NCBI GenBank assembly: GCA_030278955.1
Contig: JAOANR010000001.1
Location: 38,838,890 to 38,902,889 of the forward strand
DNA length: 64,000 bases
Source of the DNA: Hygrophila difformis
Taxonomy: Eukaryota; Streptophyta; Magnoliopsida; Lamiales; Acanthaceae
Direction: 5' to 3'
Position numbers and translations under genes: made by a program. Below, in pieces: positions 24,022 to 59,092 of the stretch. Position 1 is the stretch's first letter, and every line of letters starts with the position of its first letter. The notes beneath the pieces are model-generated. The model did not search any database. It had not been told where the DNA came from and saw nothing but the letters and a program-made list of their open reading frames with translations.

Positions 24022-24632
24022 TTCGGTCTACATCGAATTGTTTGAAACAGATCGCATTGGAGGTGTGCCTTGGGAATTTTAACCAATTCGATCTCCAAGC
24101 CAATTCGGTCTAGACCGAATTGGCCTAAGAGACCGAATTGACTTCCCAAGACACATGCTCCATCCTTGTGTAAGTTTGGCCAAGTAAGTAATTCAGTCTA
24201 TATCAATTCGGTTTACACCGAACTGACCTTGAATAGACCGAATTGACTTACAAAAGGCATTTTGATTCCTTAGTTTTATTCTTGCAAGTGAGCAATTCGA
24301 TCTATATGGCAATTCGGTTTAGACCGAACTGCCCATATAGACCGAATTGCCTCACAAAAGAGCATCTCCCATTATTTTTCCTAAGTACCCAAATTCGGTC
24401 TTCTTGCTGTAATTCGGTCTCTAGACAAATTCGGTCTAGACCGAATTGACTTCAAAAGCCCACATTACAGTAAGTGTTTGTTTGTTTGTTTTTCCTCTCA
24501 ATTCGGTCTCCATGCCAATTCGGTCTAGACCGAATTGGCCTAAGAGACCGAATCTCTCACAGACACTTGGAGACCACATCAATTCGGTCGAGACCGAATT
24601 GATGAATTCGGTCTCCCATAGACCGAATTGCT
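24022..24632. promoter_or_regulatory. GGTCTAGACC palindrome cluster upstream of the F-box-like gene
   Basis: Perfect palindromes are at 24101-24122 and 24516-24537. A GGTCGAGACC variant is at 24580-24601 and near-perfect ones at 24198, 24310 and 24427, with many half sites. It is the same motif family as in the LTRs of A, in otherwise unlike DNA, and it ends 17 bases before a TATA box. Confidence 0.78.
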
Positions 24633-24648
24633 TCCCTTCCCCAAACCC

Positions 24649-24656
24649 TATATATT
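24649..24656 (+). promoter_or_regulatory. TATA box of the F-box-like gene
   Basis: TATATATT in CCAAACCCTATATATTCC, followed by a C/T-rich leader of about 120 bases (24660-24800) that is typical of plant 5' UTRs, then ATG at 24803. Confidence 0.6.
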
Positions 24657-24802
24657 CCATTTTTCCCCCTCTTTTCCCTCACTTTCACCCTCCCACACTT
24701 CGATACTCTCCCAAACCCTCCTTTCGCGAACTTCATCTTCCTCGCGAAACCAGAGCTCGAGCCAGTGCTTCACCTCGTTCGACTCCGTCCAAAGCTTTCA
24801 AA

Positions 24803-24840
24803 ATGGCATCTTCTTTGTCTAATCCTACTGAGAGTGTCGG
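24803..24840 (+). CDS. F-box-like gene, exon 1
   Basis: ATG in good context (AAAATGGC) with 38 coding bases (MASSLSNPTESV plus two bases), followed by the donor GG/GTAAGTG at 24841. The phase (two bases left over) matches exon 2 if the acceptor is at 26844: the first base completes a Gly codon and the F-box frame follows. This agreement of phase is the main evidence for the exon. Confidence 0.5.
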
Positions 24841-25858
24841 GTAAGTGTCCTGTTTTCGATTTCGCACTCTCACTTTCGCGATTTCAGTTTTGGTTTTTCC
24901 TTATTTTTGCGAAATCGGTAATGGGAAGGGGAATGAGGCCTGTTTTCGTGTCGAGCGTGGTTGGGAAGTGGTCGGAATGAGTTGAGTGTGGTCGGAATAG
25001 GGTTTAACAGAGTAGTCCGAACTAGGGCTTTTTCTTGCTTGAAGTTCGAACCACCATTGTTGATGTTTTAAGCTTTCTGTGGTGTAGGGGATACTTCTAT
25101 TCTGAAAACTTTGGGCTTCAAAACCCATAAAAATCTGTTTTGTCTCATTTTTGTGATTTTGTGTTGCTATTGTTAGTGCTTGTTTATATGCTGTGTTGCT
25201 TGTTTAATCTTTGAGGATGTTAAAATGAAAAAAACACAGTGGTTTATTTTCCCCTGCAACCACTGTGTTATTTTGTTTACTGGATAATTGATAATGTTGT
25301 TGGATATGCATGTTGATGATGTTGCCGAATCTGTGTTTTTTAAGCATGATTTATTGGCAAAGTTTTGCATGATACTGGTGTGAATGGACTATTCTCGTAT
25401 GTTGTTTTGTTGTTTGCATGAACTGTATTATGCATACCTCTTAATAAATGCTCCTGTGGGGGTACCTGTTACCACCACTTGCAAACTCAACTGAAAAGTT
25501 GATGTTTGCATACACTGGAAACATGCCTTACAAAGGAAACCATGCCAAAATTTTTCCCGACAAATATTTTCCAAACACTATTGGCATGGCACTTTTGTCT
25601 AAAAAGACAATAGTTGGCAGAATTTTATTTTTATTCAAGTGGTTGACATGTTTATTATTGGGATATATGGGGAATAAACAAGGGTAGCAACTTTGCTCAC
25701 CCATTAATACCCATTTCCCAAAACAAAAACTCAAATGGGGAACCACTCACACCCTCAACTTCATTAAATAAACAAGTCAACACTTCCCATAAAATCCAAA
25801 AATAACCTTTTTGCATGTGTATGCTTGCTTCTATTTTTATTTCTTTACTTACTTTCCC

Positions 25859-25873
25859 CTAGTCCATCACTTT
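25859..25873. repeat. TSD left of the L1-like fragment
   Basis: CTAGTCCATCACTTT, repeated at 26374-26388. A 15-base duplication fits target-primed reverse transcription. Confidence 0.8.
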
Positions 25874-26373
25874 TTTTTTTTTTTGAGGAAAGTTATATTA
25901 CCGAACAAAAGGAGTGAACATCCAGCTACAAAGTCGAGGACGACCACAACAGTCCCGCAAACAACAACTGAACACCAAAGAAGTGCAGCGATATAGGAAT
26001 TAAAAGAGAAGGGAAACGAACACGGTGTCGACCAAATAAAGATAACCAAAGCAAAACTCCAATAGTTGTATCGAGACCAGGATAGCTTCAGCCCAAAAAA
26101 AAGGAATTCTGCATCAGCAGGATCAGCATAGGAGCAGCAGCACACCTCCCTCTCATGGCATTCTTGGGCAGCGTGAAGCAGGTCGTCAGGGCAGCCCATA
26201 GCAACGCTTCCTCAGCGCAGATCCAAGCCAAATAACCGTCCTTACTTCACCTCTTCATTCCGAAGCACAAAGGTCCCACGTAGCATGTGAACGACACTAC
26301 TCAGACATCAATCCAGTTATATAGCAAATTCGTTCCATCATCGAAAATATCAAACCGAACCAAGAGTGAACCT
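25874..26373 (-). mobile_element. 5'-truncated L1-like LINE tail
   Basis: On the - strand it ends in poly(A) (poly(T) at 25871-25884 on +) and is flanked by a 15-base TSD. The minus strand carries a 110-codon frame that ends directly in the poly(A) (GNITFLKKKKK), without clear RT motifs, as expected for the last 500 bases of a plant L1. A SINE is possible, but no pol III boxes were seen at its start. Confidence 0.65.
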
Positions 26374-26725
26374 CTAGTCCATCACTTTGTACTAGTAATT
26401 GCATAAGTCTTCTTATGTATTGAATTCTTCATTATTAAATATCCATCTTCCCTTTTTATATGCTTTTGATTACTCTCATAGTGATAAAAAATATACACTT
26501 TGCTTTTGTAGGCTCAATAGCCTATAAAAACTCTTTCTTTTGGTCCTTTGACCATTCAAAAATCTTTAGACTATTTTTAGTCTGAGAAAAATTGGTAAGG
26601 GTCCAAGACCCTTACTTCTCTTATTTCCTTTACTTTTTATTTGTAATAACAGTTAGATTCTATAATCTAACTCCCTGACTTTTAATATGTGGTATAACTC
26701 AATAAATTCAAGTAAAACCAATTAA

Positions 26726-26764: not shown

Positions 26765-26844
26765 TTTTGCAACTTGAATACCTTTATCAAAAATTTGTTA
26801 AAAATAGTTTCAATCTTTCTTCGCCAGGGACATTATCCTGCCAG

Positions 26845-27427
26845 GACCAGCTCTAGAACAGGACAGGCTCGAACTACTGGACTTGCCAATAGAATTTTAG
26901 GAGAAATCCTCTCCCGCATAGGAGAGGATGACCTCAAAAAGGTTTTCGCTGCCAGAAGGGTGTGCAAGAAGTTCAAAGCAGCTGGGGATCTCCCTATTGT
27001 GTACAAGAGGTGCGAACTGGAAACCACAATCGTTAAGATGTGGGAGATAGGAGTCGAGACAGAGAAGGAGGAACTCATGCAGAAGTGTGTCGACGCGGGC
27101 AACTACTACCTCCAGTTCGTGCCAGCCCTACAAGCATTCGGAGCAGGCAATGAGGAAAGGGCCTGTGAACTGCTGAAGCCAGGGATTGATGACAATCACA
27201 AGGCATCAATCTTTGTCAGGGGATTCATGCTGCTTAGCAAGCTGGACAAGGAACAGGTCGATCAGGGAATAGCAATGATCAACAGGATGGTGACGGACGA
27301 ATCAGTCATGGCATACGTGGGCAACAACGTCTCTGCATGGCTGATGGAAAGCCTGGAGACTCCTGATCTATTCATTTTCCAAGGACCCAGGATGACGAGG
27401 GTGATTACTGCTTGCCCTGCAGCCTGA
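26845..27427 (+). CDS. F-box-like protein, exon 2 (main coding exon)
   Basis: 194 codons without a stop, from the acceptor CCTGCCAG/G to TGA at 27425. With exon 1 the product is about 206 residues. An F-box-like motif lies at about residues 24-70 (NRILGEILSRIGEDDLKKVF, then RRVCKKFKAAGDL and YKRCEL). A region like the Sel1/TPR-like tail of plant F-box proteins of the At2g35280 type follows (CVDAGNYYLQFVPALQAFGAG, FVRGFMLLSKL, QGIAMINRM). Such proteins usually bind SKP1 and select substrates for ubiquitination. It sits between pol and the 3' LTR of A, under a promoter that shares the LTR motif, so it looks like an element-borne captured gene. It is undamaged while the pol of A is broken. Confidence 0.6.
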
Positions 27428-29237: not shown

Positions 29238-29530
29238 TGATAATGGCCAAAATTGTCCATTATTTCCAATCCATTTCCGTGTCTGAGACGGACATTTTGA
29301 TCGTATTCCCACCTTATTTCAATAAGAAAGCAGTTGAATTCGACAAATTAATGCAAGTTTGTAAGAAAAATAAGCTGGTAATGAAAGACACAAAAATATG
29401 CAATTTTAATTGCATTTGTGTTAGAAAAATCCAAAAACATGAAAAAAGGGAAAAGAAAAGAAAAAGGAATGAAAAGATGGGAAAAAGAATGAAAATCCCA
29501 CAAATTGAAATTTTGGTTAAGTGTTGAAGA

Positions 29531-29945
29531 TCAATTCGGTCTATACGCAATTCGACCTAAACCGAATTGCTTATTAGACCGAATTGCTGAAGAGAAGAAG
29601 AAAAAGAGAAGTGTTGAAGAAGAAAAGAGCAACCAATTCGGTCTATGGCAATTCGGTCTAAACCGAATTGACCCCTAGACCGAATTGCACTTTGGAAAGA
29701 AGAAGACCCTGAGCAGAAAAGAAAAGAAGGAGTTCGATATTATGCAATTCGGTCTAGACCGAATTGATTGCATAGATCGAATTGCCTCAAAACAAGGAAG
29801 CCAAGCAGGAGCCATCATCAGTTCGTTAAGGCCGATTCGGTCTACCCATAGACCGAATCACCACATTCCATGCTCAAGATCAAGAAGAAAGACCTCATTT
29901 CACCAATTCGGTCTAAACGGAACTGCTTGAGGAGACCGAATCACA
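29531..29945. promoter_or_regulatory. GGTCTAGACC palindrome cluster in U3 of the A LTR
   Basis: A perfect palindrome is at 29745-29766, and near-perfect ones are at about 29549-29571 and 29650-29671, with several half sites. It lies 80-500 bases upstream of the TATA box at 30027. The matching part of the 5' LTR is outside the window. Confidence 0.75.
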
Positions 29946-30026
29946 TTCAAAATTGCAGCTCTGAGCACGTGAGAAATGCATGGCACTGTGGATGTGCCCT
30001 GATGGACCTAGGGTTCTGAGAAGAAG

Positions 30027-30033
30027 TATAAAA
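30027..30033 (+). promoter_or_regulatory. TATA box of the A LTR promoter
   Basis: TATAAAA in AGAAGTATAAAAGCTGAG, followed by an A-rich leader. Transcription would start near 30060, which makes 29238-30060 the U3 region. Confidence 0.65.
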
Positions 30034-30917
30034 GCTGAGCTTCCTCAACACAAGAAGAAATCCGAACACTAACACTTGGACATTTGCTGGGAGACAAAAA
30101 GAAGGAGCAGAAGGTTCTCAACCCCTTAAGGGTTAGGTAGGTAGTTTAGTTAGTTAGTTTATTCTTCATGCTTATAGTATAGTTTTAATGGTTTTAATCT
30201 CAGTTTGTTTTCATAAAAGCTTGTTACTACCTTTAGTGTAGCCATTACCATAAACTTTAAATGCTTTGTAGTTAGAATGAACCCTACCTTCAAGCTAATG
30301 ATGGTTTTAGGGTTATTTAATTGCTTTTAAGTGTCAATACAAGAAGAAATCCAGAAATGGGTTTTTGTTTCAAGTGTTTGGCACTTATTTAATGCTTTCC
30401 TTAGCAATAAATGTTAGAATGTTTGTTTGTTTCAACTAGGTTACATTTATTATGTCTTAGTTGACCTGCATTCTCAATAAATGCATATTTAGAGGGTTTT
30501 TGGCTTGTTCTTATACCTTAGTGATTCAAATGAGTGTTCTTAGGTTTTAGATGATTTTAGGGTTGTTAGAATCTATTTTTAAGTTTATTCTGTTGCTGTT
30601 TTGTTCTCTTTATTTTAGCTTATTGTTGCCTTAGATAATGAAGGTGTTCTTATTTTCATGCATGCTGTTCTTATTATTCTTAGATGTTTAGGTCTTTGAT
30701 ATTTGATCGCTTGTTTGTAAAATTAAGGTTTATTTCATGCCAATACCTGCTAGACACGTAACCTATTATGCCTATTTTCCTTAAAAACACTCATTAGTGT
30801 GGCTGTGAGGTGACACTGATGTGAAATGAAGGATTTGGTAAATCTTATCCATCATGAACCACACAGTGTAAACCGAACCTGTACTTGTGAGTTCAAAATA
30901 TCGCTTATGTGGAAAAG

Positions 30918-31395
30918 GACATGCAATTCGGTTTGAGGCAATTCGGTCGGTCTAAACCGAATTGCCCATGAGACCGAATTACATAGCAAAAATCACTCTC
31001 ATATGATGTACAAAGCAATTCGGTTTGTGCGAATTCGGTCTAGACCGAATTCCTCCCATAGATCGAATTGACCTAGTACACCATATTGTATGCATTCCAT
31101 CCCTTCATGCCTTAGTTTATTTTTTCTTTGTCTTACCAATTCGAATTGTCCAATTCGGTTTAAACCGAATTGACATGGCAATTCGAATCACTCTCATTTT
31201 TTGAAGCAAATGCCTTATTCAAATTTGAGTAAGGAAAGGACTTCATCAATTCGAATTGCCCAATTCGGTCTAGACCGAATTGCTTGACAATTCGAATTAG
31301 ATGATGTTTCATGTCTCTACAAGGATTAATTGGGTAAGGTGATGCTTCATTCTTCATGCATTTTCAGTTCGGTCTATATTACACCTTAGACCGAA
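30918..31395. promoter_or_regulatory. GGTCTAGACC palindrome cluster, downstream part of the A 3' LTR
   Basis: Perfect palindrome at 31261-31282, GAATTC-ended form at 31030-31051, GGTTTAAACC form near 31151-31172. A version near 30940-30963 has a GGTC duplication between the arms. Same series as 3318-3790. Confidence 0.75.
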
Positions 31396-32369
31396 TTGAT
31401 CTCTTCCTTTTATTTCAAACTCCAAAAATATTTTAGTTCTTGAGTTGTGTAAGTTGCATGGGTGTATTGGGCCTAGGCCCACTACATCTAATTTTATCCA
31501 TTACACATCTCAACCCATTAGTGTCTTAATTATTGTGTGATTAACACTCACACAATACCAAAAACATTTTCTTAATTTTATTTCTTTTCTCTTTCATTGT
31601 GTGTATGAACAGCTAGTAAGAAATATATCAGACTAATGTTGGCGGGTATTCCCACACGGATAAACTAGCTCGTATTCTGAATATTAATTATTAGTTGTTA
31701 TTTTGCATGGTCCGGATAGTGGTCGGTGGAAGCCTTGGCGGTTCGTCCATCCGGGATTATAATAGCTGCTCAGCTGACTCCTATCCGGATACAGTTTTCT
31801 TTTCTTTATCTTAATTTCAAACCTGAATTTCGAGCTACAGTACTGTTAGATAGTGTCGATCAACACTGTTATAGCATTACTGTAGTAAGAAAACGTGTAG
31901 GTTTTTCCTAACTCATAGACAGTAGAACTCTCGATGACAGCGATCACTGTCATTAAGGGATCCCTACTGTCTAAAAATCATTTCATCTGGAATATTTGGG
32001 AACCGGATGGCAGATGTTTGCAGTCCGGATAACCCCAATTATTTCTGGCACTCTTTTTAGCCAAATTTTTCTTATCTCCGGCTAACTCATCTTTGTGTAT
32101 CAAGTTCTGTCTAACCCCACCATATATTTTGGGGTATTTTATTTTACTTCTCATATACATGTATGCATGATAGTATTATGTAGATATTGTGGTCTATAAT
32201 ATTTCGGAGATCCTTCTCCTTGGATATAGAAGTCTTGATTTAAATCTGATGTTGCATAATAAATTTCCACAAAAAATCACTTTATAAAATCCGGATCTGA
32301 GTAAAGGATAAATTCGACAGTTATGACTAACTCATATTCTACTGGGGGTTGATTTTGAGAACTTAGAAG

Positions 32370-32374
32370 CAGAG
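32370..32374. repeat. TSD left of element B (cagag)
   Basis: CAGAG here and at 49898-49902. The empty site is preserved in the 5' LTR of A (AGAAGCAGAGTCAGCG near 2053 and 4754), which proves the insertion. Confidence 0.95.
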
Positions 32375-34493
32375 TGATGCACCCTGTGAAACCACATTTA
32401 AATAAGCTTAAATTATGTTAAAACGAACCTAAATTGCATGCATGAGACTCTATTTTACTGCTTTTTAGTGTATATTTCATGTGATGTGTGAATATTAATA
32501 AGACCGGTTAAATTGAGCTTATCTGAGCCCGATTTATCTTGTTTTATGCTTTTTAATAAGACTTTGGCAATTCTAATACATTGCAATGATGTTTCAGGCA
32601 TTAAAATGAAGAAAGAAGATGTTCGGAGGTCAAAGGATGTCAAATTCGGAATTTTCAACACTGGAAAAGCTCCAGAATGCGCCACATAGGCATGGCGGCG
32701 CATAAAATCATGCTCGAGCGCCACATTATGCGCCACGTTGACACTTAGGAAAATTTCGGATGGAAAAAAGCTTCAGGATGCGCCGCATAAGCTTGGTGGC
32801 GCCGAAATCTGCTCCGGAGCGCCACAAAATGCGCCGCTGTTAAATTAAAACTTGGGAAATCGTCAGAATGCGCCGCACCTCCTTGGTGGCGCCTAAAACC
32901 ACCTTGGAGCGCCACTTTTTGCGCCGCAGAGGAAAATTCGGAAAATCATCGCATGCGCCAGCTCTCCTTGGTGGCGCCTAAACCCTCTTCCGAGCGCCAT
33001 TTTATGCGCCACCGTCGCAGTTGGGCAGTTTTCTAACCTCCCGAACTCGGTTTTAAATGCCGTTTTTCATCATTTTCTTCAGGGAGACTCATATCCAGAC
33101 TTCATTATTCGCCAAAAAAAAAAACTCTCTGTAAACACATTCCAATGGGAGAAGAAGGCCAGAAACACAAATCCATGCCGGAGGAATGCATCAGGAACGA
33201 TTTTCTGGGCGTGTTCTTCCTATCATAGGTGTTGCCTTTCTTTTTCTTGCTTTGTAATGAATTGAAATTGCCTCTAAATGTAATCTGCTATTATGTTTCA
33301 AATTTGTAGACGGATTTCTATATTGTTCGTGTTAGAAGTGTTCTAGAACGGGAGTTCAGAATCACTTTGAAGTATGAATTTATCTTTTTATGGAAGTAAT
33401 ATAATATGTCGTTGTTTATGTTGTAATCTGGGTTAATCTGCTATCATGTTAGAATCTGTCTAATCTGCTTTGGGCGCCATTTTTGATTAGGAATAATCAA
33501 TTTGATGTTTGTGGCATGATTCTTAAACAATTGATTAGATTAGATTTATCTGTAATAATTGTTAGAATTTGAATTGATATTTGGTATTGCTTGCCTGAAT
33601 TGATCGATGATTAAGATTAGTAGAAATCTGGAATCTGTAATTTTGTTGTCTGCTAAGTCTGACTTGATCGTTCAATCTGTCTCAATCTGCATTAATTTAG
33701 TCTGGCAAAATATCAATCTGTTCACATTCTAAATTTAGTATTAAAATCCAGTTTACCATGTTTTATTATTATTTTACCATAATTGTTAAATTATTTACAC
33801 TGTTCTGCATAATTAAATGTTAGAATCCAAATTCTGTGATTTCTGCTTTGTTAAATCGGGAGATAAAAAGTAGAATTAATATTTTAGTACCGGAATTGGG
33901 AATAAATTACATTATAAATGGATTCTGGCATGCGCACAATGATTTGGGAAATGAAAAGTGTCTTTTAATTGCTATAGGAAAATTTGTATGCTTGGGAAAG
34001 ACTCAAATTTAGGCCTAGAATAATGATTGCAGAATGTTAGATAATTTAATCAGCTTCCATAAAATCCGTTTGAGCATAATTTAAGCTGTAGAAGGTTACA
34101 ATATTTTTAATCTTTATAAAATAATTAATTTTAAGAAATTGATCTTTTTAGACATTGGAAAATGCTAAATCAATATGCAATTTCTATTTTATATAAAGAT
34201 GGTAATATTTAAAATATTACAAGCATCTCCCATTTATATCTTTATTAATTATAATTTTAATTTGCTTTATTTTAAATTTAATGTCACTATTTTTAATTTA
34301 ATCATCATTAGAATTAATCAAACGCTTTCAAAATATATAATATGATTAATGAACTTAAAACAATTAACATTTTCTCCGGAATGAAATAATATTCTGAAAT
34401 TCCCTGTGGTTCGACCCGGTATTCACCGGTTTTTATTACTTGATGACAACCATCCGCTTGTGGTAAAATATGAGTAGTGAAAATCACTCATCA
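32375..34493 (+). repeat. 5' LTR of element B
   Basis: 2119 bases, TGATGCACCC...CACTCATCA. It contains four 60-base GCGCC units (32678-33012), a TTTTAAA box near 33051 and a C/T-rich start of transcript. The rest is AT-rich without ORFs. It differs from the 3' LTR by scattered substitutions and a segment of about 78 bases (33718-33795) that the 3' LTR lacks. Confidence 0.92.
32678..33012. promoter_or_regulatory. Four-unit GCGCC/GGCGC inverted-repeat array, B 5' LTR
   Basis: Units begin near 32678, 32779, 32871 and 32953. Each is about 60 bases and has the order ATGCGCC, GGCGC(C), GAGCGCCA, TGCGCC, with 25-40 bases of unlike AT-rich DNA between units. Within a unit the first two sites face each other and can form a hairpin. 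Confidence 0.75.
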
Positions 34494-34499
34494 AGTTTT

Positions 34500-40747: not shown

Positions 40748-40926
40748 GGCGCCACACCTTCTTGGTGGCGCCTAAAATCAAGCTCAGGCGCCACATTATG
40801 CGTCATTTTCAAACCTGGGAAAATTTTAAGTCAGTTTTTGCGCCACACACACTGTGTGGCGCATAAAACTGCTCCGCACGGCCTGTGCGGCGCCTAAAAT
40901 GCCTTTGATGCGCCACATTCGGCGCC
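40748..40926. promoter_or_regulatory. GCGCC inverted-repeat array upstream of extra gene 1, element B
   Basis: Two units like those of the LTR, in otherwise unlike DNA. The second contains the perfect hairpin TGCGCCACACA/TGTGTGGCGCA with a 3-base loop at about 40839-40863. A TTTTAAA box is near 40965, followed by a C/T-rich leader. Confidence 0.75.
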
Positions 40927-42085
40927 GACCCACGGGTCAAAAAGCTTAGACCCGGTTTAATCGGGATTTTAAACACAAAATCTCCATTCTTTTCCTCACT
41001 TGATCGACAGTCCCTTCCCTCTCCTTCTCCACACGACCGAGCGCCATTTTTCTTCCTCCAAGCGACACACTTGCGCCAATCCGGTAAAAATTCTTTCAAT
41101 TCTTGTTTTTTCCTATTAATTATCATCCACATTGTCAATTCTCATTCCAAAAATTCCAAATTTTGTTTGTTTAATCAAATTAGGGCTCAAGAACCCTAGT
41201 TCTTCCAACTTTGGGGAATCTTCTTCAAAGTGCTCCAATCCTTCAATTTAGGTAAGAATGGCTATCCTAATTCAAATTTTAGCATATTCTAGTGCTTTGA
41301 AGTACATTAATTGTGGTATTTGTGTTGTTGCTCAAATTTTGGGTATTGTTAGAATGTGGGATAAAATTTATTTTTAATTGTCTAAATTTTAGTTTAAACA
41401 TGAACAAGTGTTGTAGAACATGGATTGAATGCATAATGTGAAAATTTTTGGATTAACATTAAAATTTGGGATTTTTGAAAATTTTAAAATCTGAAAATTA
41501 TTTTAAATTAATTGAAATGGCATTTTTGATTAATTAAATGGATGAAACATCACTAGAACATGTCATTTTAGTTATATTAAAAATATAAAGTTGTTCTCAT
41601 GTCAAAAATTCCATATTTTTCATAATGTGAGTTAATTGAACCATGTTTTGATAAAAACTCTTTTATTTATATTTTAGTTAATTAAAATAGGTTAATTTAT
41701 CATATGAATAAATTGGAATGGATTTAAATATTAATTTAAACCATTTGTAATGCACTAGTTTAATAATTTAGGTTGTATCTATTTATTAAATCTGAAAATT
41801 TAATAGAATAAGGAGTTTTTATTAAAAAGGCATGCTTAAACATGAATTTTAAACTTTAGAATAAAATGGATGATATATTTAAACAAAGTTTAGGATTCAC
41901 AATTTTTAAAATACAACATTTTGATCATTAAGTTATTTAAATCCCACATTCTAGGTTGATGTATATGTTTGCTTTATACTTAACACTTAAGTTAAACCTT
42001 TGGTATAAACTTAAGTGTGAGGATGGGAGGCAATGCATATATATGATACTAACCCAGAGTTTTTGTACAACCAGGTACTGAAATA
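40927..42085 (+). other. Leader and intron of extra gene 1, element B
   Basis: C/T-rich leader at 40975-41250, possible donor TTTAG/GTAAG at 41252 and acceptor CAACCAG at 42074, then ATG at 42086. The intron is AT-rich and ORF-free. A perfect 11-base hairpin (ACACTTAAGTT at 41983-41993 with AACTTAAGTGT at 42008-42018) and GAGGATGGGAGG lie about 50 bases before the acceptor. Confidence 0.5.
41983..42030 (+). other. Hairpin plus polypurine-like GTGAGGATGGGAGG, element B
   Basis: The right hairpin arm runs into TTAAGTGTGAGGATGGGAGG. TTAAGTGTGAGG is also the polypurine tract at the 3' LTR of B (47843-47854). Confidence 0.6.
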
Positions 42086-42979
42086 ATGTATAATCCTCCG
42101 AACCTCCCTAAGAAATCGGGTTATAGGTATATACCCATGCCCGAGGGGAGAATGGGGATATATGATCCACAGTCACCGGATAGCATTCCTACTCCTATTC
42201 CTGATGAGCATATTTTTGAACATCGCAGACTCCGCACGAAAAATTTGATACAGATGGATCACCCAAAGGGCTCAGGAGGTGCTTCCAAGTCCAAGGGACT
42301 TCTCTCCTATTTCAGGAAGAGCAAGTCCAAGAGTGGTGCATCTTCGAGAAATACTACAGTGCCCGCTGATGACCATCAGGAGGTCAATCAGCCTGACCAG
42401 CCAGATCAGCCTGATCAGTCCATTCAGCCTGAGACATCCGATCATTCACAGGCCCCCTCTAGAGCGTCTCGGGGGAAGGCACCTGTCACGAGTTCCACTT
42501 CTTCTCGACCTAGGAGAGGAAGATCTGCTGCATTAGCCATACAGGAGCCTGTCCCTGAGGCTGTGGGTGGGGAGGAAGATGATGATGAGGTTGATCAGGA
42601 GGAGCAGGAGGAGCAACCGGCAAGGGGAGGACCTAAAAGGCAAGATCCCAGAGCCTATGTCCCCGATTTGTTGTACGTCAGGGAGGGCATATTCGATGCC
42701 ACTGTATTCAGGAGTGCCAGAGCCTACGAGCTGTACAAAAGATTTCACAAGAAGAGGATCATCGCTGATAGGGGATTTTCAGATAGAGATTTACAGCACC
42801 CTCTACTCCGAGATGCTATTAGATCCAGGGGTTGGGAGAGATTTGTGAGACACCCAGCTGGATCATATTCGGCTGTTTCTAGCAATGCTGAGGAGGAGGA
42901 TTCTTGGATTTTTGGGGTTAGAGTACCTATCACTCCTCAGCACATCAACCAATTATTTGGAGTAGTGGATGTGCCCTAG
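42086..42979 (+). pseudogene. Extra gene 1 of element B, N-terminal part (PF20167-like)
   Basis: 297 codons from ATG 42086. A low-complexity N-terminal half has Q/P/D repeats (residues 95-125), a basic RPRRGRSAA patch and an acidic stretch. It then has a region like the putative plant transposon protein domain PF20167 (FHKKRIIADRGF, RSRGWERFVRHP, WIFGVRVPITPQHINQLFGV). In such elements this gene sits downstream of pol and is often called env-like or an extra ORF, but no signal peptide or membrane segment is visible. It ends at TAG 42977-42979, and the frame continues at once. Family recognition is from memory of motif wording. Confidence 0.7.
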
Positions 42980-43000
42980 GGCAGAGATTTCTGGGAGCCG

Positions 43001-43990
43001 GTGATGAGAGCCGATGATAGGGAGGATTTCAAGAAGCTTGTACTGATGTCTATGTTTGAGGGTCAGGAGGATGTCCTCACGTATGATGATGATGACATGA
43101 GTAGGCTACATGGGCCTGATATGGATGCACCCATGTACCAGCTTCTCATGTTCTACAGATCTAGATTGAGTCCTTCGACTCACACCTCTGGACCTACTGC
43201 CCTGGATATGTATGTCCCATATTGCATCAAGGTGGGGAGCCCGATCAACATGAGAGAGCTTATATCACTTGAGTTGAGACAGACACCGGGGGTGTCTAAG
43301 AGGTCAGCTCTTATGTTCCCCAGCTTGATATGGCAGCTTTGTGCTCAGGCAGGAGTGAATATGGGGCAGTTTGATAGAGATTGGAGAATGAGGCCCCCTA
43401 TTCCATTTGGGAAGAAGAACTTCAAGTTGCCTGGCATAAGATGCCAACCTATGATACTTCCCAGGGAGTTGCCCAGGCAGTCACCACCACCTGCACCTTC
43501 ACAGGCTAGCCAGGAGCATTCTGAGGCTCCTTCGCAGTCCACCCGAGGTACACGAGGTGGTAGGGGTAGAGGTAGAGGACGAGGGAGAGCTCAGCCACAG
43601 CAGCCACAACACTCACAGCAGTCATATCAGCATCAGGGAGAGCCTGAGTGGGCTAGGACTTTATTGATAAACCAGCAGAACCTGCAGAACACAGTGAATG
43701 AGCATGCCTTACTTGCAGCTCAAAGGCACCATTTCTTGGCTGACCAGATAGCCAAGAATGCTCGAGCCCAGGCTTACCACGCAGCCCGACTGGAGTACTT
43801 CATGTCCCAGAGCTTAGGACAGCGATATGTCGCTCCTCAGACACCTTTTGAGGACGATGAGGATGAGGACTATGTAGGCTCTGGAGATGGTAGCGAGGAT
43901 GGAGATGATGATGCTGATGATGCTGATGCTGGGGATGGATCTGAGGAAGTTGGAGATAATGATGATGACGATTCTGAGGACTCTGACTGA
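43001..43990 (+). pseudogene. Extra gene 1 of element B, C-terminal part
   Basis: 329 codons, same frame, so a single nonsense codon splits the gene. It holds the rest of the PF20167-like region (DMDAPMYQLLMFYRSRLSPS, LMFPSLIWQLCAQAGV), an RGG/GRG box (residues about 179-197, GTRGGRGRGRGRGRAQPQ), a Q/H stretch, and EYFMSQSLGQRY. A long D/E/S-rich acidic tail follows. RGG boxes bind nucleic acid in many proteins, so a nuclear nucleic-acid-binding role is possible. No function is proven. Confidence 0.68.
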
Positions 43991-44429: not shown

Positions 44430-44764
44430 TGCGCCACATATGCATTGTGGCGCCTAAAAATGCCTTCCGGCGCCACTTTATGAGCCGCAAAACTTAGAAA
44501 TTTTTCTAAGTTTTTCCAAAATGTGCCGCACGTGCTTGGTGGCGCCTAAATCTGCCTTGAAGCGCCACTTTTGGCGCCGCAAAATGAGAATTTTTCCAAG
44601 TTTGCTTCAGGATGCGCCGCATCAACTGTGCGGCGCATAAAACCCCCTTTCAGCGCCACAAATTGCGCCACGGCTTATTTTTAAATTTTATTTTATTTTT
44701 AAAATGCGCCACACTCACTGTGTGGCGCCTAAATTGGCCTCGGAGCGCCACTTTTTGCCCCACC
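44430..44764. promoter_or_regulatory. Four-unit GCGCC inverted-repeat array upstream of extra gene 2, element B
   Basis: Four 60-base units with about 30-base spacers, the same count and order of sites as in the LTR. Hairpins are better kept than in the LTR: GCGCCACA/TGTGGCGC in unit 1 and GCGCCACAC/GTGTGGCGC in unit 4. A TTTAAAA box follows near 44935, and a C/T-rich leader runs to the ATG. Confidence 0.78.
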
Positions 44765-45048
44765 GACGCGAATTTTTCAAAACTTCGCGAATCCAAAAGA
44801 TTCAAATCATATCTAATTGATTTTTGGGATCCTAAACAGCATTATACTGACTCCAAATCGTATGATTAGTGTATATTTGGATTTAGAATAAATCAATCCC
44901 TCCATATCTCAACAAAATCAATATTTCACCACCTTTAAAAGAGAGAATACCGATCGGTCACTCTCCCATTACCAAATCTGTCAATTCTTCTCTCTTCCAG
45001 TTTAATTAGCTTTCCAATCTCAATCCCTTCTTCCTAAATTCTGCCACC
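44765..45048 (+). other. Leader of extra gene 2, element B
   Basis: TTTAAAAGAGAG near 44934, then C/T-rich sequence and GCCACCATG at the start codon. No intron needed. Confidence 0.5.
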
Positions 45049-45576
45049 ATGAGAACAAAGAGAAAGAATAACCCGAGAAACAATGGTGGAAAGAAACAGA
45101 AAGCCACAGAGCCTGCCCCATCACAGACAACAGTTATTAGAGAACCTGTTCCGGAGCCGGCTGCTGTGGGTGCTGAAGACATGTTTGTGAATAACCTGGT
45201 GGCTCCTGATTCATATAATGGATACAACACTTCTTTCAATTCTGCTCAACCAACGGAGGATGATCCACAGCAAGAAGAGGATGTCGCTGAATCTCCGGAG
45301 GAAATTTCACTGGAGATTCCACGTGATTCTAAAATCAAGAGAAAGAGTCACAATAGAAAGGATGATACCCCTCCTCTGGAAGAATTAACAGGGGACACTT
45401 TCAATCCAGTTATTTTCATCAATCAAACGGCATATTCTTATTATCAGAAGATGGTGGAAAGGTGGATTATCCAGGACAAAGGATTCACTGAAGCTGACAT
45501 GGAGCGATTTTCGGTTCATGATGCTCTCATGAGTCGAGGATGGATGAAATTTGCTGCGCATCCGAAAGGATTTTAA
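45049..45576 (+). pseudogene. Extra gene 2 of element B, N-terminal part (PF20167-like)
   Basis: 175 codons from ATG 45049 in a strong context (GCCACCATGA). The N-terminus is basic and NLS-like (MRTKRKNNPRNNGGKKQK), followed by an acidic stretch and a second basic patch (KIKRKSHNRK). The PF20167-like region starts at about residue 120 (YYQKMVERWIIQDKGF, LMSRGWMKFAAHPKGF). A single TAA (45574-45576) interrupts it. It is a diverged paralogue of extra gene 1 in the same element. Confidence 0.7.
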
Positions 45577-46506
45577 TCTTGGGAGCTTACTAGGCAATTC
45601 CTATGTAATGCTCGGTATGATCACTATACTTCATGGATTAGGGGAGTGCCTGTGCCATATGGTCCTGCAGTAATTAATGAACTTTATGGTACTGTGGATG
45701 TCTCTTGCCCGGCTACAAAGAAGAAGCACTTTCATGACCCTATTCATGAAGAGGAAGGAGGACCAGAGTTGGAGAAAAGAATCTTGAGAGAGATGTTTGA
45801 AAAGCAAAAGGAAGTTGCCTACATAGGGGAGAAGAAGGAAAATGTTGTTGCCACTTCAATGGATGCACCACTATACCAGATCTACTTGCTCTACAAGCAT
45901 AAGGTGTTTCCTACTTCACACACTGCACAACCGAATGCAGAGGAGCTGTATTTTGTGTACTGTGTGAAGAATGGATTCCCTATTGACATTGGGGATATGG
46001 TGGCATATGAGTTGGATAAATTGGCATCTGATGTAAAAAGGAGGATTCTTGGATTCCCTGCACTGATTTGGGCACTTTGCAAGAAAGCTGGAGTGGATCT
46101 AAGTGCATATGCTCAAGATGTGAAGCCAAAGCCCCCTATTTGCTTCAAGACTAATTATACCAAGCCTGTAGTAAGATGTGCAGAGCTAGCTTACCCGAAT
46201 TCACCTCATAGGGCATCCACACATCACACTGATATGCCTAGTACATCTGGTACTAAGGCTGAGCCCGCAGAGAATGCAATCAATAGGATGACTTATGAAA
46301 TTCATCAGCTTAGAGCCGAGATGAAGAAGAATGAGGATAGTACACAGACACAGATTGCACGACTTTCCAACAGATTTGAGTACTTCATGTCTGCAAGTCT
46401 AGGTGATCGATATATTCCTCCTACTACTAGTTCGAGCTCTACAGGGAGTGATGATGTTCCTAGGGAAGATGGAGTAGGTGATTCGGATGGATCTTTAGAA
46501 ATCTAG
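45577..46506 (+). pseudogene. Extra gene 2 of element B, C-terminal part
   Basis: Same frame after the TAA, open to TAG 46504-46506 (the first usual start is 45646, 286 codons). It has WIRGVPVPYGPAVINELYG, SMDAPLYQIYLLYKHKVFP, ILGFPALIWALCKKAGVDL and a short heptad-like stretch, then EYFMSASLGDRY and an acidic end. These blocks line up with extra gene 1 (EYFMSQSLGQRY). It lacks the RGG box and the long acidic tail. Confidence 0.7.
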
Positions 46507-51506: not shown

Positions 51507-51551
51507 CTCCGGCCTACCATAACGTTGAGGCGTGTATATCTTTCTACAGAA

Positions 51552-53628: not shown

Positions 53629-55370
53629 TGTAACACCCCGGTTTTTGATCACCCAGGTCGGGATGTCACCGCCACACCTCCCTAGTAAGACACGGTTTCT
53701 CCGGCTTACTAAAGAGATGCAAGGCTAGGTATTTCAGTATTTAGAAGCTTTGAAAACATTTGCAAACAGCCCATACAATATAATCTCGAAAATAATAATA
53801 TCATAGCGCAACGGAAAAAGTATTTAAGTATAATATTGCAGCGGAAATATAAATACGACCAACACGGTCAAAACACGGGTTAAACAGGCTCGTTTATTCT
53901 AATGTCTAATGCAAGAATTTAAATAATAAATAAGTTTGCAAAAATATGGTTCCCCCATGCATGAACGTGCTCATGATCATTCTACATACTCTGTAAGGAA
54001 GAAGGAAAATAGGATGGTTTGCTCAGCACAACTTGCTGAGTAAGTTAACACATGCATGATCGTAGGGTTTAAAAGCCATTAATTTAATATTTACATAAAA
54101 ACATGATAATATTCATAAATAATTTAAATGAAGCCATAATTAATTTAAATAAAACATTTAATAATTTAAAGGACAACAATTAAAAATATTTAACTATCCC
54201 CGTTACTCCCAAGATAATATAGCAAGTATTTCACGATTGCATTGCAATCTCGTCAATTTAGCCGGAAACCGGCGGCCGCAGCCGTATCTGCCATACCCAG
54301 TACCACTCCGGAGCCTCGAGAAACCCATAAGGATATTCACGAGAGTGTAGGCCATATATCTCATGCCGTTTTGGCAACATATCTCAAATATTTCGCGTGG
54401 GGTCACCATCGTCCATATAGGCACGAAGTGAATTGTTAGGAGGGCACCCTGCAGAGCACTCACCCCCTAATTTTAACGATCAAGTTCGTAAAGGGGATTT
54501 CCTAAGTTTCCAGATTTCATATAATTATTTCAAAGAGTCTTCTACTCGTTTAAAACTTAAATGCTAGTTTCATTGTTTCAACAATATTTCAAGATTTGAC
54601 TCGGTCAACCACAGTTTACACCAAAATTCATTAAAAATCGAGTTTACTTCCAGAAATTCTGAAATTTCACCACTTACTCAGAAACATCGAGATGAACAAC
54701 TTTCGTGTTTTAACTTTTTCAATCCGAGTTACCGAAATAGGTCAAAATCATCAATTTTCGTCACGACCTAAATCTGCCCGAAATTCGTATACAGTAGTTC
54801 AAGATTATCAAGATCTACCATAGCAAATCAACTCCAAAATTAATGAAATTTTACAGAGACCTTCTTAAGAATTTATCTACTATTTTTATGTTCGGCCAAA
54901 GATCTAAATCGGTCTAGAACCTATGTCAAAAACGTGATCAAGATCGGACCTAAGTTCTGTCAAGAATTTCAAGAGCAAATTTCAAGCAGTTCGGTTTTGG
55001 TTGGTTTTCACATAACAAATCATCTTTTAAAATTCTGAAAATTTCACAGTAGATAGAGCTAAGCCTTAGGAACGTTTTTTGTGTTTTAAGTTTTTCCGTT
55101 TGAAGTAGTTTTAAGGTTCGAAAAAATTCGTCAAAACTATTGCGCCGGTAGAAAACATTCAATGACAGATTTACGAAAGATTCGATTAAGCTTTTAGGTT
55201 TCGTGTTTTAATTACTCCCAAAACCATGTAAGTATTAACTTACAGATTTGTAGATATCCGGGATCGTCTATTTCGAACGCGTGGCTTCCAGTCCTCCGTC
55301 TATCCTCTCCGTTCGTCGGGTTCTACGTTCTAGATCCGATTCGAGGCGTAGAAAGAAAAATAAGAAGATT

Positions 55371-55466
55371 AGGATTCGTTTTCGAATCAAACGTAAGAGG
55401 CGAATGGATCGGAACTTACGACGACATCTAGGATTCGTTTTCGAATCAAACGTAAGAGGCGAATGG
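55371..55466. repeat. Tandem duplication in the LTR of D
   Basis: AGGATTCGTTTTCGAATC...AGGCGAATGG occurs at 55371-55407 and again at 55430-55466, so a unit of about 59 bases is partly doubled. TTCGAA inside each copy is palindromic. Confidence 0.8.
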
Positions 55467-55690
55467 TCTCGTGCCTCCGACGACTCCGGAATTAGGGTTT
55501 TCGGACGTATAGAGAGTTGTAGGGTTTTGGAAAAGTATTCGGAGCTTTTAAGAGGGCTTATTTATAGTTGAACAAGCCCTAGGGACACCCAAGGGCTGCC
55601 CCTAGGAGTCTTGAGCCGAAAGGTGTTCAACCGAAGTCGGAAAATCCGGATTCGGGCGAGAAAATCTCGCACGGGCGAATCTGTCACATG

Positions 55691-55740
55691 GCGCGGTCGT
55701 GGCGCGCTCTTCCTTCTTCGACCGCGCAGCCACCGCGCGA
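55691..55740. promoter_or_regulatory. CGCGCGG-type inverted-repeat cluster, LTR of D
   Basis: GCGCGGTCGTGGCGCGC, then ACCGCGCAGCCACCGCGCG: facing GCGCGGT and ACCGCGC sites. It lies about 400 bases into the LTR in the element sense. Similar to 59005-59092 upstream of the extra gene of D. Confidence 0.55.
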
Positions 55741-56144
55741 CACTCGCCTGGACTTCGGTCCGGGTGGGTCGTGCGATCCGTCGTGCTTTTCCTCCTCTCT
55801 TTCGGATTTCTATCCCTCTATGCTCCCGTTTTCCGATTTCCGGGGTATCTTCGGGTTTCTACTTTCTCTCTAAGTTTTTACTCGGGTCTAATTGGATGTT
55901 TGGACTCAAATTCTCGAGTTCATTGGTGTCGGGTTTCGGTGTATAATTTATTTACCTTTAATAATTCTTTTTATTTAATTAAATTCCTTTAATTCTTTTT
56001 TAAGCTAAATCTCATTTCTCATTTCCTTATCCTTATTTATTTATTTATTTGCTGGATTTATTTATTTATTGTATTTATTTTATTTATTGTTTATTTATTT
56101 AATTATTTTTTTATTTTATTGTTGGAAAATTCCCGGGTATTACA

Positions 56145-56161
56145 GTCTACCCTCCTTAAAA
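56145..56161 (-). other. Polypurine tract, element D
   Basis: On the minus strand TTTTAAGGAGGGTAGAC stands directly before the 3' LTR, preceded by GAGGACGAAGTTGATT, as in element C. Confidence 0.85.
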
Positions 56162-56367
56162 ATCAACTTCGTCCTCGAAGTTGTGTTTCGACTTTTCTCG
56201 TGTTAAGGTCTTTTGTTTGTTTTATTATTTTGTGAATGAACTTAGAATTAAAACTTCTAAGCTGCCTACGTACCCTGTGAAGGGATCAAGCCATAACGTA
56301 GTTCAAAAGTTTACAAAAATGCACGAAAAATAGGTCGTATGACATCCTCTCCCCCTTAAGATTGCAG
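56162..56367 (-). other. 3' untranslated part of element D
   Basis: Between the pol stop and the polypurine tract. It includes AGGGGGAGAGGATGT on the minus strand (about 56341-56356), nearly the same as the sequence after gag in element C (20762-20776). Confidence 0.6.
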
Positions 56368-57624
56368 TTAGGTCCCCATAACTGTGTCGGTATCGGTTTG
56401 GAACAATGTTGGGTAGCGTTCTCTCATGTCGGATTCTACTTCCCAAGTTGTCGTCTCACTTTCGTGGTTCGACCAAAGAACCTTGATCATTTTGACGGTT
56501 TTGTTCCTCGTTACTCGTTCCTTAGTGTCGAGAATACGCACTGGGACTTCTTCATAAGTCAAATCTTCATCGAGCTCAATTATCTCCGGTTGAAGTACAT
56601 GTGTCGGGTCCGGCACATACTTCTTTAGTTGTGAGACATGGAAGACATTATGAACTCGATCTAATTGTGGCGGTAAAGCCAGTCGGTAGGCTAAATTTCC
56701 GACTCGTTCTAGAATCTCGTAAGGTCCTATGTATCGAGGACTCAACTTTCCTCGCTTGCCAAAGCGCATCACCCCCTTCATGGGTGGTATCTTTAGCATG
56801 ACCCTATCTCCCACTTGAAATTCTAGGTCTCGTCGTCTCACGTCAGCGTAACTCTTCTGACGGTCTTGAGCGGCTTTCATTTTTCCTTGAATCACTTTGA
56901 TTTGTTGAGCCATGTCTTCGATAAGTTGTGGTCCCACTACCACCGACTTATCGTTTTCTTCCCAGCTCAACGGGCTTCGGCACTTTCGTCCATGCAACGC
57001 CTCGAAAGGTGCAATGCCAATGCTAGCATGGTAGCTATTATTATAAGAGAATTCGATTAAGGGTAAATGGGATTCCCAATTTCCCTTAAATTCCAACACG
57101 CATGCTCTCAGCATGTCTTCTAGTGTTTGGATTGTTCTCTCGGTTTGACCATCCATCATTGGGTGGAATGCGGTGCTCATTTTGATTTGAGTACCGAGAG
57201 CCTTTTGTAACTCCGTCCAAAAGTGAGAGACAAATCTACTGTCTCTATCGGAAATGATGTCATGTGGTACTCCATGTCGTCGTACCACATTATCAACGTA
57301 GGCTCGGGCCAATTGGTCCATAGTCCACGTGTCCTTCATCGGGATAAATATGGCTGTCTTCGTTAGCCTATCCACAATCACCCAAATCTTGTTCATGCCT
57401 TTAGGTGATCGAGGTAATCCCGAGACAAAATCCATTGAGATGCTATCCCAATTCCAACTTGGAATCTCTAGTGGTTGCATCAGTCCTAAGGGTTTATGTC
57501 GCACTGCCTTGACCTTTTGGCAGGTGAGATATTTCGCCACGAAGTCTGCCACTTCCTTCTTCATTCCCGGCCACCAATAGATCTTCTTCAGATCCTTGTA
57601 AAGTTTGTCGCCTCCGGGATGCAC
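56368..57624 (-). pseudogene. pol: integrase with chromodomain-like end, element D
   Basis: 418 codons. Zinc finger end (CQKVK), catalytic core with Asp in SISMDFVSGLP, Asp in IISDRDSRF and Glu in GQTERTIQTLEDML. The GP-Y part (LSPRYIGPYEILERVG) and a C-terminal chromodomain-like segment of the Tekay type follow (PVRILDTKE, IKVLWSNHESETTTWE). Chromodomains guide chromovirus insertion to heterochromatin. A single stop (57625-57627) separates it from RNase H in the same frame, just before MHPGGDKLYKDL. The integrase itself is otherwise undamaged. Confidence 0.87.
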
Positions 57625-58965
57625 TTAATATGGCGTGTTGTGCCCTTCCTCCATCAACCTTCGCTTCAATTCGGCACATTTAAGGGGCACACACCATCTC
57701 CCTTTGAAGCGAATGCTTCCATCCTCATGGACAGCAAATCCTATTGCCCTTCCTTCGGCAATATACCCCCTTATCTTCTCGAGTTTCGCATCGCCCGGTT
57801 GGGCGAGCTTAATCTCGTCCAATATTGGAGTTTCTACGACCATGGCGTTGATCGTTTCACTCACTGTGCCAGGATGCACAAGTTCTAACTCCAATCTTGC
57901 TAACTCCATGTACAATGCCGGCGGAATTACCAACGAGTTTGTCACGTGTTGGGTTTTCCGACTGAGGGCATCGGCTACCACATTCGCCTTCCCCTCGTGG
58001 TATGCTATCTCTAAATCATAGTCTTTAATAAGTTCCAACCACCTTCGCTGTCTCAAATTCAACTCCTTCTGAGTGAATATATATTTCAAGCTCTTGTGGT
58101 CGGTGAACATTCGACACTTCCGCCCATAAAGATAATGTCTCCATATCTTTAGAGCGAAAACGATCGCTGCCAACTCCAGGTCATGTGTCGGATAATTCTC
58201 CTCGTGAGGTTTCAGTTGGCGTGATGCATATGCTACGACTCTCGAGTCTTGCATCAAGACACAACCTAAACCTTCCTTCAAAGCATCGCTGTAAACTTCG
58301 AAGTCACCATTCTCTGATGGTAGTGTTAATACGGGTGTGGTTGTGAGTCGTTTCTTTAACTCTTGAAACGCTGTCTCACAAGCCTCTGTCCACACGTATT
58401 TTACTCCCTTCTTAATTAGCTGGGTCAAAGGTCGTGCGATTTTAGAAAAATCCTTCACGAACCGTCTATAGTACCCGGCTAAGCCGAGGAAACTCCTTAT
58501 CTCAGTTTGACTCTTTGGAGTTGCCCACTCAGTTACGGCATAGACTTTTGTCGGATCCACTGAAACTCCATCAGCGGATACTATATGTCCAAAAAATGCT
58601 ACCTCCTTCAACCAAAAGTCGCATTTGGACAGTTTGCCGTATAACTGATTCTCCCGCAAGGTCCCTAACACTTGGTGCAAGTGTTGGGCATGCTCCTCCT
58701 CGTTTTTCGAGTAGATCAGGATGTCATCAATGAACACCACTACGCACTGATCTAACAGCTCTCGAAATACATTGTTCATGAGGTTCATGAACATTGCCGG
58801 AGCATTTGTTAACCCAAAGGATAACACTGTGAACTCGTAGTGACCATATCGAGTTCGAAACGCCGTCTTCGGAATGTCTTTCTCGGCAATTCTCAGCTGG
58901 TGATACCCAGATCGTAAGTCGATCTTCGAGAATACTGAAGCTCCCTTCAGTTGATCACGTAACAA
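57625..58965 (-). pseudogene. pol: RT (front missing) and RNase H, element D
   Basis: 446 codons. RT begins abruptly at about [20 protein letters not shown]. The fingers and the CIDYRELN-type region are absent, replaced by unlike DNA from about 58966. The catalytic motif is present ([11 protein letters not shown]), then [18 protein letters not shown]. RNase H follows: [13 protein letters not shown], where relatives have DAS, then [41 protein letters not shown] start codon is lacking (the first codons are TTG). Without the RT front it cannot be active. Confidence 0.87.
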
Positions 58966-59004
58966 GTAGAAAGTCGGGAAAATAAATTAAAAAAACATTT
59001 TCGT
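58966..59004. other. Junction between truncated RT and the antisense gene region
   Basis: RT wording is lost here. The next bases are AT-rich and lead directly into the GC cluster of the antisense gene. Confidence 0.6.
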
Positions 59005-59092
59005 GGGCCCGCGCGGTGCTCGCGCGGTGGCGCGCGGTGACCGCGCGGCCACAGCAGTTCGAAAAAAAAGGGCTCGCGCGGAGCGCGCGCCA
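59005..59092. promoter_or_regulatory. CCGCGCGG inverted-repeat cluster upstream of the antisense extra gene
   Basis: CCGCGCGG, CGCGCGGTGGCGCGCGG, ACCGCGCGGCC and CTCGCGCGGAGCGCGCGCC in 90 bases. It precedes a C/T-rich leader (59097-59194). The same kind of cluster is in the LTRs of D and C. Confidence 0.6.

Follow-up and report, generated by a model that had tools for sequence, protein, structure and literature searches.

In a 64,000-nucleotide stretch of the Hygrophila difformis genome (assembly GCA_030278955.1, contig JAOANR010000001.1, positions 38,838,890 to 38,902,889 of the forward strand; hereafter the window), nested long terminal repeat (LTR) retrotransposons carry arrays of short inverted-repeat motifs in two places, the LTR and the DNA upstream of their accessory genes, and within an element the motif of one place matches that of the other. 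We read these arrays as selected cis-regulatory modules through which one factor would co-regulate the genome transcript and the accessory gene, a reading to which we assign a probability of roughly 0.7. In the mechanism proposed, clusters of dyad half-sites with fixed spacing, located in the promoter region of the LTR and ahead of the accessory genes, would be acted on by a single trans-acting factor, coupling genome transcription with accessory expression. Placement, spacing, conservation, matching within elements and one successful prediction in a new family were observed; we infer that a protein would bind the sites, either activating or protecting from silencing, and that it would be the same protein at both places. 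We know of no established role for most plant retrotransposon accessory genes, and arrays that match the LTR, keep their cores amid drift and change in parallel from one family to the next are suggestive of a common regulator.

Paired arrays in the window

The window is made up of nested elements, with C lying within A, B within the 3′ LTR of A, and D on the minus strand. A is a Ty3/gypsy element in which gag, protease, reverse transcriptase (RT), RNase H and integrase were found. In A, B and D alike pol runs in the order RT-RNase H-integrase, with RNase H preceding integrase, which places these three elements in Ty3/gypsy and not among the Ty1/copia Sireviruses. Motif counts in the window were compared with 50 first-order Markov resamples. 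The A half-site TTCGGTCT occurs 54 times against a resample mean of 1.4, in clusters that include 24022-24620 (18 sites) and 29535-29933 (11 sites). The B motif GCGCC occurs 104 times against a mean of 30, and its four biggest clusters, at 32679-33006 (19 sites), 40748-41073 (15), 44431-44745 (18) and 48163-48490 (16), compare with a biggest cluster of 5 in any resample. For D, GCGCGG occurs 19 times against a mean of 4.0, with clusters at 55691-55733 (three sites) and 59009-59076 (seven sites). The initial annotation had placed these motifs in the LTR of each element and again before its extra genes; they were confirmed at every one of these places, in clusters far above the resamples (for D, within the window), and some additional main clusters lie elsewhere.

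In element A, the array upstream of the accessory gene (24022..24632; 18 half-sites) is followed by a TATA box at 24649 and a C/T-rich leader, the first exon presumably starting at 24804, and is kept in the loci L003, L043 and L044 (L-numbers denote genome loci or stretches compared with the window). Another A-type array, at 29532..29950, consists of CAATTCGGTCTAGACCGAATTG half-sites and palindromes, ends 77 bp before TATAAAA at 30027, and is kept in L043, L044 and L046. Its position relative to the LTR depends on where the LTR starts. Self-comparison of the window alone gives a start at 3261/30868, but the DNA immediately left of the window (L046) matches 29238-30422 at 89% identity in an alignment that begins exactly at 29238, and sequence resembling that ahead of the B 3′ LTR stands, by eye, before 29238. 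Judged by this alignment the A LTR begins at 29238 and is longer than self-comparison indicates, so that the array at 29532-29950 and the TATA box at 30027 form the LTR promoter. By the same alignment boundary and self-comparison, the left part of the 3′ LTR of A (29238..32375, plus strand) ends where B is inserted, and the LTR resumes at 49898-51506. A further A-type array in this LTR, at 30921..31400 (5′ LTR equivalent 3315-3790), lies downstream of the TATA box.

Element B, whose LTRs were delimited by self-comparison (5′ LTR 32375..34493, with TGGCGCCGTTGCCGGGGA directly after it; 3′ LTR 47859-49897; both plus strand), carries an array of four 57-bp units with GCGCC-13-GGCGC dyads at 32678..33013 in the 5′ LTR, the 3′ LTR equivalent being 48162-48500. 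Internal B-type arrays lie upstream of accessory gene B1 (40748..40926; kept in L039 and L040) and upstream of accessory gene B2 (44430..44770; kept in L008, L031, L037, L038 and L039); the B relative L031 carries CTATAAGAG at the position of TTTAAAAGAG in B2. In D, a GCGCGG cluster in the LTR (55685..55745) stands upstream, on the minus strand, of TATAAATA at 55566, and a GCGCGG array (59005..59092), recognized by motif count and by alignment to the D LTR, stands upstream of an antisense gene. The D LTR and internal arrays share a 28-column alignment with a score of 35, against a shuffled mean of 17 and no score as high in 300 shuffles (within the window). The D-like LTR of L054 retains three GCGCGG/CCGCGC sites.

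The order of array, TATA-like box and leader described in the initial annotation held in part: a TATAWA box in the correct orientation within 500 bp follows the A internal array (24649), the A LTR array (30027) and the D LTR array (55566). CpG observed/expected ratios were 0.89-1.30 in the A and B arrays and 0.39-0.80 in their own flanks, with a G+C content of only 0.38-0.43 in the A arrays; the ratios of the D LTR array and its flanks were nearly equal (1.52 and 1.44).

The genes downstream of the arrays fall mostly, not wholly, under one protein family. B1 (42053..43990, plus strand) and B2 (45010..46506, plus strand) both match PF20167, at 42.3 bits for the matched piece and at 69.8 bits respectively (cut-off 45), each with one in-frame stop; they are paralogues, 37-42% identical over the aligned pieces. 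The accessory gene of D (59894..61126, plus strand), antisense to D pol, matches PF20167 at 37.3 bits, below the cut-off of 45. The accessory open reading frame (ORF) of A (26765..27427, plus strand) matches PF23310 (TPR_27) at 29.6 bits (cut-off 27); it gave no F-box match in Pfam, being F-box-like by eye only, and this gene piece gave no PF20167 match. B has the Athila-type layout, in that it is a Ty3/gypsy element with a sense PF20167 accessory gene between pol and the 3′ LTR. We call it Athila-like on two grounds, one of which is its primer site, presumably for tRNA-Asp like that of A (at 6355, resembling TGGCGCCGTTGCCGGGGA). The other is the sunflower Athila element described in PMC11728184, the only report to which the literature search for PF20167 led, whose accessory ORF is given there as PF20167 with a predicted nuclear localization signal.

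Conservation, spacing and two further families

All genome-wide counts refer to 915 Mb in 246 contigs. Among B relatives, an array was present at 12 of the 12 expected places covered by the fetched stretches: two each in L037, L038 and L040 and three in L039, with 80-92% DNA identity over the longer matches, and one each in L008, L028 and L031, where identity was mostly 73-75% and up to 85%. These last three were obtained from a PF20167 search in which the motif was not used, and all three kept the array. The A copies L043 and L044 carry it at all three places, with 73-91% identity over the longer matches, and A-type arrays were also found at the gene promoter in L003 and at the LTR promoter in L046. 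The paired placement holds for A and B. L003, L043 and L044 (A), L037-L042 (B type) and L001 had been picked by motif hits.

Conservation of the motif cores was assessed in triplets, each motif being located in one copy and the identity then computed between two further copies; the counts so obtained are not independent, most loci were motif-chosen, and the near-identical second window LTR of B was dropped. Core, spacer and flank identities were 98.1, 79.8 and 90.6% for the B LTR array (five sequences), 91.6, 74.7 and 86.2% for the first internal array of B (three sequences), and 93.5, 70.8 and 74.4% for the second (six sequences). The corresponding values were 96.9, 88.7 and 86.4% for the A internal array (four sequences), 95.6, 91.1 and 92.3% for the A LTR promoter array (four sequences), and 92.7, 87.5 and 88.6% for the second A LTR array (five sequences). 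The effect is thus strong in B and at the A gene promoter and slight in the A LTR. CpG tends to decay fast in methylated plant DNA, and since the cores contain CpG and would be expected to decay fast, their stability is notable.

The arrays also follow a spacing grammar. A 57-bp B unit consists of GCGCC, 13 bp and GGCGC, then two more GCGCC/GGCGCC sites, and recurs with a period of 85-101 bp in the window LTR and 91-92 bp in the second internal array. The window and seven B loci contain 74 GCGCC..GGCGC pairs whose gap lies between 4 and 29, and in 48 of them the gap is 13; among the 107 GGCGC..GCGCC pairs listed it was 16 in 49 and 28 in 43. The A module is ordered half-site, palindrome, half-site; CGGTCT followed by AGACCG with a gap of 0 occurs 31 times in the window and four A loci, and gaps of 17 and 18 together another 31 times. 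Genome-wide, in totals that pool retroelements with all other DNA, the count per strand is 4597 for GGTCTAGACC (386 when the pattern is reversed), 7553 for GCGCCRCN9GYGGCGC (23 reversed) and 3254 for GCGCCACN9GTGGCGC (2 reversed).

Two families outside the window extend the pairing. In the E family (L005, with its upstream stretch L053), an array of TRGCGT/ACGCYA half-sites lies upstream of a PF20167 gene, and after it come a C/T-rich leader and a site resembling a splice donor; the same type of module is present in L035, upstream of L006. The expectation that the E LTR would carry the matching half-site was written down before the sequence of L055 was analysed, and L055 was found to hold eight TRGCGT/ACGCYA-type sites in 146 bp, within a stretch bounded by matches to the start and end of the B LTR. 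The array at the E LTR was thus predicted from the gene promoter and then found. The four-half-site module occurs twice in L055 and not at all in five shuffles. In the F family (L011), the module upstream of the gene reads TGGCAC-13-GTGCTA-12-TGGCAC-6-GTGCTA and that at the expected LTR place (L056) reads TGGCAC-13-GCGCCA-12-TGGCAC-6-GCGCCA. The 13/12/6 spacing is identical at the two places and the half-sites agree only in part; in L056, where no boundary of the LTR was visible, its position was estimated from how far it lies from the gene. The B, E and F modules each set four related half-sites in about 60 bp, with repeats every ~80-100 bp in B and E, and the A, B and E half-site counts by family are fully diagonal.

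A genome search for PF20167, in which 150 of 9595 candidates were scored, gave at least 30 loci. The upstream DNA of eight of them (L047-L054) was scanned for the four-half-site module and for repeated 6-mers, excluding words with fewer than three different letters such as GCGCGG. L053 holds the E-type array, L047 one module, and L048, L049, L050, L051 and L052 none, in a survey blind to weaker motifs and to arrays more than ~4.5 kb upstream of the domain. L012 gave one module match with three mismatches, which was left uncounted. A very short D-like element (~0.9 kb between its LTRs) lies directly upstream of the L012 gene (L054; G000:C8:15275800-15282063), so the promoter of that gene could not be judged.

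Candidate factors and alternative explanations

Several results weigh against selected, co-regulated modules. For five of the eight surveyed PF20167 genes (L014, L017, L023, L027 and L032) the upstream stretch retrieved contains neither an array nor a module, and no TATAWA box was found within 500 bp of the B arrays or the D internal array. Cores exceed flanks by just 3-4 points in the A LTR arrays, and the D arrays themselves are known from the window copy. Array presence in L003 and L037-L044 is biased upward, these loci having been selected on their motif hits. In L055 the E half-site totals nine in 5.1 kb; the mean of 200 resamples was 2.1 and the highest equalled it at nine, which shifts the weight to clustering and spacing. 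Base covariation just inside the dyad, seen in 15 of 20 units (shuffled mean 8.8) from the B element of the window, L008, L028 and L031 (two of the units being off-register, with a 14-bp gap), was absent from 50 genome sites (27 distinct), where the matched fraction was 0.593 against an expected 0.599.

The motif types also proved to be shared between lineages. The presumed LTR of L001, recognized without a mapped boundary from an array, a TATA box and a leader that follow the integrase ORF, carries an A-type array: five A-type palindromes with at most three mismatches, one of them an exact 22-bp match, none of which arose in 50 shuffles, all upstream of TATAAA. The integrase region of L001 is 24% identical to that of A (222 aa) and 35% to that of D (228 aa); L001 can be called chromovirus-like because it resembles D, whose own chromodomain match is weak. 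In an LTR read by eye, L041, which is D-like (53% identical to the D integrase over 111 aa), and its relative L042 (68-78% DNA identity) have B-type dyads whose gap is likewise 13 bp and which recur every 80 bp. The C LTR and D share GC-rich motifs including GCGCGG (C against D LTR, p 0.007; C against the D internal array, 0 of 300 shuffles), the C LTR cluster (16600..16650) having three sites at 16604-16636. Motif types are thus not private to one family. Of the family-specific code proposed in the initial annotation, the evidence supports paired arrays inside an element, conserved cores, motif types that vary among A, B and E but agree inside each element, and one prediction that came true; confinement of a motif to one family is not supported.

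These observations bear differently on what the factor would be. Motifs common to unrelated lineages, and to Sireviruses, speak for a host factor or for hijacking. That one or several host transcription factors act on the arrays, with unrelated lineages converging on them or exchanging them, we consider somewhat short of an even chance. The exact palindrome in L001 and the B-type spacing in L041/L042 speak for it, as do the Sireviruses Osr10 and Vitis, described as having CGGTCTGACCG and CGGTCGACCG in the LTR and before ENV (PMC2829016). It does not predict that the half-site should differ between B and E in step at the LTR and the gene promoter.

That difference, with agreement at both places within each element, favours a factor linked to the element. 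Under a second explanation, which we think possible although doubtful, the factor would be element-encoded: in the Athila-like B, E and F the PF20167 protein would bind its own half-site and activate or anti-silence in a VANC-like manner, and carriers of that motif in other lineages would be hijackers. The half-site shifts in step at both places (TGGCGC in B, TRGCGT in E; mostly TGGCAC in F, for the left arms), as co-evolution with a diverging factor predicts, and the nuclear localization signal predicted for the sunflower protein is in keeping with such a role (PMC11728184). VANC6 is likewise described as affecting AT9TSD1, an unrelated element bearing its motif (PMC5735166), a case comparable to elements T and G. 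On the other side, no DNA-binding fold emerged for PF20167: the AlphaFold2 model of the D protein, built on an alignment of five window pieces, had a mean predicted local distance difference test score (pLDDT) of 45.5 and was unusable, and a PDB sequence search gave no match at E up to 1. The A accessory ORF lacks a PF20167 match, five surveyed PF20167 genes lack an array, and the F half-sites agree only partly between the two places. More tentative still is the full scheme, in which the PF20167 protein of each Athila-type family would be a DNA-binding protein whose half-site co-evolves with matched arrays at the LTR and at its own promoter, forming a self-activating or anti-silencing loop, and unrelated LTR elements (T, G and perhaps the gag-only C) would survive by acquiring the array and borrowing the factor.

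Array exchange, in which the internal arrays would be mere copies of LTR arrays made by recombination or template switching with no regulatory role, appears quite improbable as a full account. Identity between the LTR and internal arrays of B is 67-78%, and they have ~57-bp units and some spacer words in common; although the flanks differ, this makes array copying as such likely and weakens the argument of the initial annotation that simple copying does not explain the pattern; L001 also matches the A internal array over 67 bp at 85%. Recent recopying would, however, leave whole arrays alike, whereas B spacers diverge more than flanks while the cores are nearly fixed, and the studied arrays sit at promoter positions. 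Least probable is that the palindromes act through hairpins, in RNA or as single strands, serving for instance as small-RNA sources or targets: dyads with 13-bp loops could form hairpins and the 20 B-type units covaried locally, and Sirevirus LTR palindromes have reportedly been linked to small RNAs, but the covariation is gone in the 50-site sample, the A palindrome has no loop, and the first arrays in the A and D LTRs, being upstream of TATA, would lie outside RNA started there. As a general feature the RNA hairpin was rejected on the 50-site result.

Element structure and relation to known systems

The 5′ LTR of A starts ~1.2 kb outside the window and, across window positions 1-6354 and L046, contains a diverged tandem repeat of ~2.7 kb. 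The sequences flanking the two LTRs (gagtc on the 5′ side, ctccg on the 3′ side) do not match as a target duplication, and the 5′ LTR is therefore probably a recombinant between A elements. In the A copy L003/L036 (G000:C1:1213000-1220477) the region after pol is rearranged, with blocks in both orientations, and the joints fall close to positions where the window copy has arrays. Nested in A, element C (16369-23644) is gag-only, with a zinc knuckle in its gag ORF (19556-20731) and LTRs (16369-19094 and 20923-23644) that are 99.6% identical, and is presumably young and non-autonomous.

D lies on the minus strand, with its 3′ LTR at 53629..56146 (right boundary by eye; the match to a D-like LTR in L045 stops at 56145) and its 5′ LTR running off the window from 62424. 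Its pol is truncated inside RT at 58986, and the antisense PF20167 gene and array occupy the place of the remaining gag-pol (58986-61420), a possible gene capture. A minus-strand ORF beside the D primer site (61422-62084), with a weak coiled-coil-type Pfam match below cut-off, may be what is left of gag or may encode a second accessory protein. Elsewhere, an LTR-like stretch downstream of an E-group PF20167 gene (L006, reverse complement 2903-3020) has eight GCGCGG/CCGCGC sites like the C and D LTRs, and in L010 a PF20167 match lies within a 1131-aa open frame at a locus that also matches B 35489-36639 (gag and the stretch after it), which suggests a fusion.

Extra genes are familiar from other plant LTR retrotransposons (Grande, RIRE2 and Retand, and the Athila PF20167 accessory ORF). 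The Grande accessory gene is driven by a promoter of its own and encodes a nuclear protein, to go by a title cited in PMC11963269, and about half of recently active Retand elements are described there as carrying tandem repeats in the accessory region. In the accessible parts of this literature we found no report of LTR-matched motif arrays upstream of the Grande, RIRE2, Retand or Athila accessory genes. For a Ty3/gypsy counterpart, judged by titles and abstracts from sources that largely leave out the subscription literature, only PMC2829016 is directly on point, and we do not claim absence from print.

The initial annotation had drawn a parallel with the VANDAL elements of Arabidopsis, which is fair. 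Hosaka et al. (2017; PMC5735166) describe VANC anti-silencing with short motifs that are amplified by repetition in non-coding parts and diverge between related families, as the motifs do here, and the action of VANC6 on AT9TSD1 indicates that cross-action on unrelated motif carriers can occur. VANDALs differ in being DNA transposons (PMC12844716), whereas the present elements have LTRs, gag, RT and integrase and are not Mutator-like; no VANC-like protein was identified among them, and the arrays are known from sequence alone.

The nearest known case is instead the Sirevirus repeated motif. Bousios et al. (2010; PMC2829016) describe family-specific palindromes repeated in the LTR upstream of TATA and again upstream of ENV, the latter in 77 of 79 linker copies, with CpG islands at the arrays; the Osr10 motif CGGTCTGACCG is given in the LTR and before ENV, and CGGTCAGACCG of Osr8, which has no ENV, in the LTR only. 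Both are close to the A palindrome CGGTCTAGACCG, which contains the CGG-CCG core of the Sirevirus motifs; GCGCC/GGCGC of B and TRGCGT/ACGCYA of E do not. Here too a palindromic motif is repeated in the LTR near the promoter (with TATAWA for A and D only), and further copies stand upstream of the extra gene in A, B and D in the window and in E and F outside it, though not before five other PF20167 genes. The Sirevirus elements are Ty1/copia with ENV, whereas those described here are Ty3/gypsy with PF20167 or PF23310 genes, one of them antisense. The present elements are set apart further by compound modules of four half-sites at fixed spacing (B, E and F) and by motif types common to unrelated lineages within one genome, near-identical motifs in distant elements being reported for Sireviruses as well (PMC2829016).

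The layout has been known since 2010 in Ty1/copia Sireviruses; the elements described here belong to another superfamily, the motif varies among related families, and unrelated families have motif types in common. If the sharing of modules between unrelated lineages holds true, retroelements exchange regulatory parts as well as genes. Since Ty1/copia and Ty3/gypsy elements have this layout in common, it may reflect a more general rule among plant elements that carry extra genes.

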